Of a stretch of 41,919 bases of DNA, positions 31,678 to 33,366 are shown piece after piece (the first letter of the stretch is position 1; every line of letters starts with the position of its first letter). The notes beneath the pieces were generated by a model, which worked only from the letters and a program-made list of their open reading frames with translations, made no database searches and was not told the origin of the DNA. The stretch is from an uncultured bacterium. GTDB lineage: Bacteria; Verrucomicrobiota; Kiritimatiellia; RFP12; UBA1067. The translations under genes and the position numbers were made by a program. The stretch covers positions 1-41,919 of the forward strand of contig CACZCD010000033.1 in the NCBI GenBank assembly GCA_902779565.1. The letters run 5' to 3'.

Positions 31678-31686
31678 CCGAAAAAT

Positions 31687-31760
31687 AAAAAGCCGCGGGA
31701 AAAGCGGCTTCCAAATGGTTGCCTCATAAGAATTCGAACCTTAACAAGCAAATTCAGAAT
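31687..31760 (-). repeat. Degenerate copy of tRNA-Gln 3' half plus terminator (attachment-site-like direct repeat)
   Basis: This 74-nt segment matches 33214-33287 with six differences, all transitions. It contains the terminator hairpin (AAGCCGC/GCGGCTT, 31690-31710) and, at 31716-31760, the CCA end, acceptor 3' strand, T arm, variable loop and 3' side of the anticodon arm of tRNA-Gln. The similarity stops in the anticodon arm. No 5' half is present, so it cannot be a functional tRNA. The form is that of the distal att site left by integration into a tRNA gene. Confidence 0.85.
31690..31710 (-). terminator. Terminator hairpin of the duplicated tRNA end (may also stop mfd)
   Basis: A 7-bp stem AAGCCGC/GCGGCTT with a 7-nt loop is followed, on the minus strand, by TTTTTATTTTT. 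In the plus direction it lies 12 nt after the mfd stop codon but lacks a T-run there. Confidence 0.7.
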
Positions 31761-31811
31761 GTTCTTATGGGGTGATGGATGGTGAGGAAATAGGCGTTTT
31801 TAGGGTGTTTC

Positions 31812-31827
31812 GTTTCCGTGTGTTTCC
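31812..31827. repeat. GTTTCC repeat at the left end of the islet
   Basis: GTTTCCGTGTGTTTCC occurs here and, in the same orientation, at 33102-33117 near the other end of the islet. Apart from this, 31761-31892 holds AT-rich sequence with no gene that I can support. Confidence 0.7.
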
Positions 31828-31892
31828 ATGTATAGGGGCGCATTACCACATTAAAAGATGTCAGAAAGATGTCATGGTTTTGGGGGTGGTTT

Positions 31893-32138
31893 TTAGGTTT
31901 GTGTGAGCCCGTTGATGAGCGTTGTAAGGTTGCGGTTGGCCTTAATGCTTTCCTCAAGGATGCGCTTGAGGCAGGCTTCCGTCATCTTGTTTGCCCTAAT
32001 CTGTTCGTCGAGAAGTTTCTTGGAATAAACCTGAATGTAATAGATGAAGATCGGAACCAGAAACGCCAGTACGGCGTAAATGATTATGAAAATGCCGACG
32101 ATGATGCCAACCACGGGGCCGAGTGATTCAAGATTCAT
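31893..32138 (-). CDS. Small single-pass membrane protein, function unknown
   Basis: The 81-residue product has one long hydrophobic segment (residues about 8-35, VVGIIVGIFIIIYAVLAFLVPIFIYYI) after a short acidic N-terminus. A basic, helical cytoplasmic tail rich in Lys, Arg, Glu and Asn follows, with heptad-like spacing (LDEQIRANKMTEACLKRILEESIK). AAGGAG lies 7 nt before the ATG, which strongly supports translation. It is the second gene in the tRNA-bounded islet, 49 nt after its upstream neighbour and probably co-transcribed. Base composition is AT-richer than the flanking genes. No family is recognised. Confidence 0.72.
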   Translation of the reverse strand: MNLESLGPVVGIIVGIFIIIYAVLAFLVPIFIYYIQVYSKKLLDEQIRANKMTEACLKRILEESIKANRNLTTLINGLTQT

Positions 32139-32187
32139 TGTGTTTCTCCTTTTGGTGTTTACGGTTGCGTTTGTTTAGGGCGAAGTG

Positions 32188-32940
32188 TTATTGTCTGCCG
32201 TAGCAGTTTGCACATGGGGCTGATTGCTTGGTGTACCCTTTGCGGCCAGAGGTGCGGCATTTTTGGCATGGCGCGCCGCCGGTGGTGCCAGAGCCGTAGC
32301 ATCGGCCGCACCGTTTCCATGTGACGACCTCACCCGTGCCGCCGCACTTGGCGCATTTGGGTGGTTTGGGTGCCGGTGGTGGATTTGATTCTTGTGTTTT
32401 GATGAATTTGGTTCCGCGTGGATATTTGGCCGCGAGATTGTTTTTCAGCTCAAGGAGTTTTTGTTTCAGACCTGACACGTTAAAATGAAGTGTGCGAATG
32501 GATCCGAGAGTTGTTTCAAATCTGATGATTAGATTCGTTGCCGATGATAGGCGTCCGATTGGGTCACGGGCTTTGGGGAAGAATGCAGAGCGGCGATCTG
32601 TGGAAGTTTCGCATAGCCATTCTTCAGGAGGGTTTTTGTCAAAGCGAACTGTTGCGATGATGCCGTGTCGGTTCATGCCGTCTGACTTGACCTGAAAGTA
32701 TGACTCAAATTTGTATTTCAGCGCGCCGGTGTCAGTGATTTCGGCCGGGGTGATTTTTAGGATGATGTACGGCGATTCATTGAGGAAGTCAGAGACTTGA
32801 TATTTGTCACCTTTGGAAACGATGTAGTAAGAGAGTTGGTCTGTAATTTCGTCCGTGTCCTCGTCGATTATCCAATCAGCGGCGGCGGTGATTGAGAATG
32901 CGGCGCAGAGGACGCATATCATGGTGTTGGAGTGTTTCAT
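32188..32940 (-). CDS. Secreted protein with C-terminal DnaJ-type zinc-ribbon, islet cargo
   Basis: The 250-residue product has a signal peptide (MKHSNTMICVLCAAFSITAAA, cleaved before DW). Residues about 40-170 form a beta-rich domain. Its end (PIGRLSSATNLIIRFETT ... FNVSGLKQKLLELKNNL) resembles the TagO/VasI-type domain, but only by eye. After a Pro-rich linker (NPPPAPKPPK), residues about 196-249 carry four C-x-x-C pairs, two with G-x-G (CAKCGGTGE, CGRCYGSGT, CQKCRTSG, CANCYGRQ). This is the pattern of the DnaJ cysteine-rich domain that binds two zinc ions. No J domain is present. A zinc ribbon on a secreted protein is unusual. The start codon lies 7 nt after a -10 box with no Shine-Dalgarno; Met7 is an alternative start. 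Confidence 0.75.
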   Translation of the reverse strand: MKHSNTMICVLCAAFSITAAADWIIDEDTDEITDQLSYYIVSKGDKYQVSDFLNESPYIILKITPAEITDTGALKYKFESYFQVKSDGMNRHGIIATVRFDKNPPEEWLCETSTDRRSAFFPKARDPIGRLSSATNLIIRFETTLGSIRTLHFNVSGLKQKLLELKNNLAAKYPRGTKFIKTQESNPPPAPKPPKCAKCGGTGEVVTWKRCGRCYGSGTTGGAPCQKCRTSGRKGYTKQSAPCANCYGRQ

Positions 32941-32947
32941 GGCGGGT

Positions 32948-32956
32948 ATTATACCA
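32948..32956 (-). promoter_or_regulatory. Extended -10 promoter of the islet genes
   Basis: On the minus strand TGGTATAAT ends 7 nt before the ATG at 32940, implying a leaderless transcript. No convincing -35 is present. The rest of 32957-33213 holds no supported gene: it contains the GTTTCC repeat and AT-rich sequence. Confidence 0.65.
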
Positions 32957-33093
32957 TGTGTTCAATGGCGCATAATATACGGGCATGAAAAAATAATAAA
33001 ATAATTGTTGCAAGTGTGCGCACACTATGAACGACCGCTTTTTACAAGAGTTCCGCTGCCCGCCGGTGCGCATGTGCGTTTTTGCGGTTGTGT

Positions 33094-33117
33094 TTCCGTT
33101 TGTTTCCGTGTGTTTCC
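33094..33117. repeat. GTTTCCGT tandem and right-end copy of the islet repeat
   Basis: Three GTTTCC units in series end with GTTTCCGTGTGTTTCC (33102-33117), identical to 31812-31827 and in the same orientation, about 100 nt inside the right boundary. Confidence 0.7.
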
Positions 33118-33214
33118 TTTTTCATTGGAAAGGCCTCTTTTGCTGTTTGATTATGGTCAGACTATGGTCGCTCAAAATGACGACGGCGCGTATTATAGAA
33201 CACATTAAAACAAA

Positions 33215-33239
33215 AAAAGCCGCAGAAAAAGCGGCTTTT
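33215..33239 (-). terminator. Terminator of tRNA-Gln
   Basis: AAAAGCCGC/GCGGCTTTT stem with a 7-nt loop, followed on the minus strand by TTTTTTT and GTTTT. It lies directly after the tRNA CCA end and forms part of the 74-bp direct repeat. Confidence 0.85.
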
Positions 33240-33242
33240 AAA

Positions 33243-33317
33243 TGGTTGCCTCATAAGGATTCGAACCTTAACAAGCAGATTCAGAATCTGCGGTGCTACC
33301 ATTACACCATGAGGCAA
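33243..33317 (-). tRNA. tRNA-Gln (anticodon CUG), CCA encoded
   Basis: The minus strand folds as a full cloverleaf. The acceptor stem is TTGCCTC/GAGGCAA with encoded CCA and the U1-A72 pair typical of tRNA-Gln. The D arm contains TAATGGTAG, the anticodon stem GCAGA/TCTGC holds loop TTCTGAA (anticodon CTG, reading CAG), and the T arm is TAAGG-TTCGAAT-CCTTA. It has its own promoter and terminator. Its 3' half is repeated at 31716-31760, so it is the probable integration target of the islet. Confidence 0.95.
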
Positions 33318-33337
33318 TGGATCGAAAAACGGCGCGA

Positions 33338-33366
33338 ATTATAGCACATCGCCTATTTCGGTGCAA
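33338..33366 (-). promoter_or_regulatory. Promoter of tRNA-Gln
   Basis: On the minus strand: TTGCAC, 17-nt spacer, TATAAT with TGC before the -10. It ends about 20 nt before the tRNA 5' end. Confidence 0.85.

Follow-up and report, generated by a model that had tools for sequence, protein, structure and literature searches.

A 1.5-kb islet at a tRNA-Gln gene, probably the remnant of a larger tRNA-targeting element

An islet of about 1.5 kb, with two cargo genes inside, lies between mfd and htpG in the window (the whole 41,919-nucleotide stretch that was analysed), and it was almost certainly formed by a tyrosine integrase inserting DNA at the anticodon loop of tRNA-Gln(CTG). Both of its ends are hybrid, and it holds no integrase. 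The islet is probably an integrated tRNA-targeting element, a temperate phage or a satellite, that has shrunk to its present size and now looks like a CIME-like remnant. The assembly examined is a 4.09-Mb draft in 322 contigs, and the features of the islet are listed in the table.

The original prediction described a 74-bp direct repeat with six transitions at a spacing of 1527 bp, an intact tRNA-Gln(CUG), an islet between mfd and htpG that is AT-richer than its surroundings, and no integrase within it, and each of these was borne out. The direct repeat spans 80 bp at 90% match (31681-31760 against 33208-33287, 1527 bp from start to start), and the 74 bp at 31687-31760 differ from the tRNA-side copy at six positions, all six of them transitions. 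The intact tRNA was recognised by both ARAGORN and Rfam RF00005, and the GC content is 48% in the islet and 61% in the remaining DNA of the window. The terminator, the CCA end and the rest of the tRNA 3' half are all present in the copy, which breaks off at the 5' edge of the anticodon loop; read along the tRNA strand, it opens at ATTCTGAAT, the edge of that loop. The 7-bp overlap in the anticodon loop has the same sequence in both copies. When the whole genome was searched with the tRNA region, the fragment copy (E = 1e-24) ranked second to the gene itself.

Table. Features of the islet and its ends, with positions in the window
Feature	Position	Strand	Basis or remark
tRNA-Gln(CTG), intact	33243..33316	-	ARAGORN; Rfam RF00005, 64.1 bits
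Intrinsic terminator presently behind the intact tRNA-Gln	33215..33239	-	Unlike the native flank of congener G005
Three tandem 10-bp repeats, GGAAACACAC / GGAAACAAAC / GGAAACACAA	33088..33117	-	Putative integrase arm-type sites, tRNA side
Cargo gene 1, 250 aa	32188..32940	-	phrog_1848 domain at residues 18-167
Cargo gene 2, 81 aa	31893..32138	-	One hydrophobic helix; weak phage membrane-protein match
11-bp tandem repeat, AAAGATGTCAG/AAAGATGTCAT	31854..31875	.	Possible excisionase-type or second arm site, fragment side
Two tandem 10-bp repeats, GGAAACACAC / GGAAACGAAA	31808..31827	-	Putative integrase arm-type sites, fragment side
Displaced tRNA-Gln 3' half, anticodon loop to CCA	31714..31760	-	Repeat and alignment of relatives
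Displaced original tRNA-Gln terminator	31688..31712	-	Downstream of the cargo operon, ahead of mfd
Promoter-like string, ~TATAATANGCGCCG	33178-33200, 33325-33352, 32957; also L110, L005		

The congener G005 has the same four upstream genes, with mfd last, followed directly by a terminator and tRNA-Gln, and the islet is absent. This is the empty junction that the original prediction proposed looking for in relatives. When the islet was removed in a script and the flanks were joined at the crossover, the result was an uninterrupted tRNA-Gln, and the joined flanks aligned to the G005 site (188/225 bases aligned) with a score above that of either occupied flank. The empty site and its alignment with the rebuilt one support the claim of a tyrosine-recombinase insertion with an anticodon-loop crossover, which leaves a restored tRNA at one end and a 3' fragment at the other.

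The two copies differ in what they share with relatives. At both differences within the tRNA, all aligned relatives side with the intact gene and against the fragment, so the fragment has drifted. Around the terminator it is the fragment, and not the intact tRNA, that shares with G005 the G after ATTT and the sequence past the T-run, and the native tRNA flank of G005 resembles the DNA past the fragment rather than the DNA past the intact tRNA. The fragment is therefore the original 3' end, and the 3' half and terminator of the intact tRNA would have been supplied by the element. The attP of the element would have borne a tRNA-Gln 3' half and terminator, and a tyrosine integrase would have joined it to the tRNA gene at the anticodon loop. 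The element's copy would then have restored the tRNA and the original 3' half and terminator would have moved to the far side, which would make the intact tRNA-Gln both a hybrid att site and a restored target. The displaced terminator now lies between the cargo operon and mfd, where it could end transcription of the operon.

Two other histories bear on the same locus. If part of the tRNA region had been duplicated in tandem and had then decayed, a same-orientation direct repeat beside the tRNA would also result, but this history is disfavoured and highly improbable: the copy ends exactly at the anticodon loop, the 1.45 kb between the copies is AT-rich, carries phage-family cargo and is missing in the syntenic congener, and a duplication leaves the repeats within both ends unexplained. 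A second intact tRNA-Gln ancestor, which would have spoken for duplication, did not appear at the roughly 30 tRNA-Gln(CTG) loci of relatives, none of which has a second 3' half near the tRNA; the matches there were weak, and some fell on adjoining tRNAs. There is likewise a very slight chance that the two genes are native to the intergenic region and that a tRNA fragment was transposed or gene-converted to a place near mfd. The absence of an integrase fits this history and nothing more does, whereas the G005 locus has neither gene and the order and orientation of the parts fit a tRNA insertion; the islet genes were not found at an mfd locus without the tRNA fragment. The original prediction would have been weakened by relatives that all carry the same genes and fragment, which was not the case, and neither gene has a full-length relative in plasmids, phages, viral contigs or 84,980 species genomes.

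The tandem repeats inside both islet ends are a new point that goes beyond the original prediction. The 10-bp repeats have the consensus GGAAACAMAC and lie just within each end, and the fragment-side set is oriented the same way as the tRNA-side set. The 4.09-Mb assembly contains three copies of their 15-bp core, TTTCCGTNTGTTTCC, all of them within the islet, with both ends represented. For the 11-bp tandem pair, 1 of 300 shuffles was equally good. Short direct repeats around att sites are typical arm sites or excisionase sites of tyrosine integrases, and the islet repeats are, judging by their sequence, putative integrase-binding sites. Elsewhere, in relatives and viral contigs, the repeat pattern was found mostly within ordinary coding genes such as those for ATP synthase and MurJ; the one intergenic match in viral contigs was in an unrelated phage contig.

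The protein of cargo gene 1 has a signal-peptide-like stretch at its N terminus, which predicts export, and DnaJ-type CXXCXGXG cysteine motifs at residues 191-218. It matches phrog_1848 at 3e-13, and the domain is weakly VasI/TagO-like; two relatives of the 250-aa protein have weak Pfam VasI matches that are under the family cut-off. Cargo gene 2 starts 49 bp past cargo gene 1 on the same strand and has a GGAG ribosome site. The cargo would thus consist of a small membrane protein and an exported protein whose domain is of phage type, as far as function can be read from sequence. A defence-system library gave no match to the islet genes. TATAAT lies only about 7 bp ahead of the ATG of an islet cargo gene, which suggests a leaderless transcript.

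The phrog_1848 family is present in 4 of 162 genomes of the order, and two of its other loci resemble the islet. One is a phage contig of genome G067 (L104), whose attP is the same as the end of the host tRNA-Arg at 26 of 27 bases and has GTGCGTGGTTT twice on each side. An integrase lies on one side of this attP, and on the other a phrog_1848 gene is directed toward it, so that the contig shares with the islet a gene of this family pointing at the att site and tandem repeats there. The contig differs from the islet in having an integrase and phage genes, another tRNA, another repeat sequence, and a shorter att identity that begins at the T arm. The attP is mid-contig, within positions 5626-7968 of contig C4, together with the host tRNA-Arg(CCT) end, a 369-aa integrase and the exported phrog_1848 protein, and the tRNA-Arg at the host site (contig C192) is intact.

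The other locus is in the congener G002 (L099), which is in the same genus as the islet's host. Its phrog_1848-family gene is directed toward a tRNA-Ala(GGC) 3' half that starts at the anticodon loop, as in the islet, and 10-bp tandem repeats separate the two. This element differs in having extra small genes, and its contig stops before the far side, with no integrase visible. A palindrome, GGTGTGNACCACC, occurs three times before small genes of the G002 element (L099, 185-275 and 685-705) and may mark operator sites. A phrog_1848 gene in genome G165 was dropped as support, as no adjoining tRNA fragment was found. In viral contigs, neither a profile search for the four phrog_1848 proteins nor a search for the exact tRNA-Gln 3' half gave a match. 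The three loci suggest that phrog_1848-type proteins are cargo beside attachment sites in the islet's bacterial family.

Further loci of one integrase clade in this bacterial family were gathered by a search with the G067 integrase. At least nine have an intact tRNA immediately upstream of the integrase gene, and the targets at L110-L122 are tRNAs for Arg, Ala, His, Asp, Ser and Leu. Most have their own 10-12-bp tandem repeats between the tRNA and the integrase gene, with a sequence that varies per element; compared with shuffles, support for these repeats ranges from strong to none, and those of L112 and L111 are no better than shuffles. The islet, with its intact tRNA, terminator, tandem repeats and cargo toward the fragment, has the order of the clade minus the integrase. 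Taken with the G067 arrangement, the clade loci therefore indicate that the islet consists of the two ends of an element of this kind, with the integrase missing. The original prediction had also suggested looking for larger integrase-bearing islands at the same tRNA-Gln site; none were found there, and the complete elements are at other tRNA genes.

The islet's own genome has two recombinases that are Xer-like, judged by size and score, and one long-frame recombinase; no phage-type integrase is evident. Neither this genome nor 143 relatives yielded an integrase accompanied by GGAAACAMAC repeats, and the islet repeat sequence differs from the repeats of every complete element seen. A long tyrosine-recombinase-like frame (G000:C6:13510-14367) has similar frames of 560-620 aa in relatives across the family; it could be a conserved host gene whose catalytic domain carries an insertion.

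The lack of an integrase can be explained in two ways. It may be, though this is rather unlikely, that the islet is a still mobile mini-element which naturally has no integrase. Like a MITE for a tyrosine integrase, it would have a cargo operon between two complete arms and would use the integrase of a co-resident phage for excision and insertion in trans. Both repeat sets, the 7-bp overlap and both ORFs are intact, decayed genes are not visible, and the islet was found in its own genome only, among the relatives compared, all of which would suit a mini-element. Against it, this genome has neither a second copy nor a cognate integrase, a circle junction is not known, and the displaced tRNA half has gathered changes at conserved positions, so the islet has not moved very recently. 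It is about as unlikely that the islet is a minimal tyrosine-recombinase element of about 1.5 kb which never carries an integrase and spreads in trans with only two full arms and a two-gene operon. A shrunken larger element is favoured, since the searches gave neither another copy nor a helper and since the fragment has drifted; an internal deletion would have removed the integrase and the rest and retained the cargo operon. We infer this deletion only from absence, since no debris of an integrase gene is visible.

CIMEs are decayed ICEs or IMEs in which the integration and transfer genes are gone and both att ends are kept (PMC5704250). The islet fits this class for the most part: attL and attR are retained, and integration and transfer genes are absent. 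It differs in that the relatives of its arrangement include a phage and a conjugative parent was not seen; no ICE or IME from which it could derive by deletion was found, and the phrog_1848 relatives point toward phage-type elements. The parent was likely phage-type rather than an ICE. PICI-like phage satellites have their own integrase, replication and packaging-interference genes, and the islet has two small ORFs only.

Compared with the anticodon-loop class of Islander (PMC4383910), the islet has the restored tRNA, a displaced 3' fragment downstream in the same orientation, the right order, an anticodon-centred crossover and an empty site in a relative (G005). It differs from Islander islands in having no integrase-like ORF and in being 1.5 kb long. 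The Islander filters require an integrase and a length of at least 2 kb (PMC4383910), so the islet would be rejected on both counts. Islets of this type are overlooked because standard island finders drop candidates that lack an integrase or are shorter than 2 kb, even though such islets bring in cargo genes and restore tRNA genes. A tRNA fragment with matching tandem repeats at both ends could serve as a search rule for integrase-less elements.

A promoter-like string recurs before tRNA-Gln, before integrase genes and at one spot in the islet (see the table).
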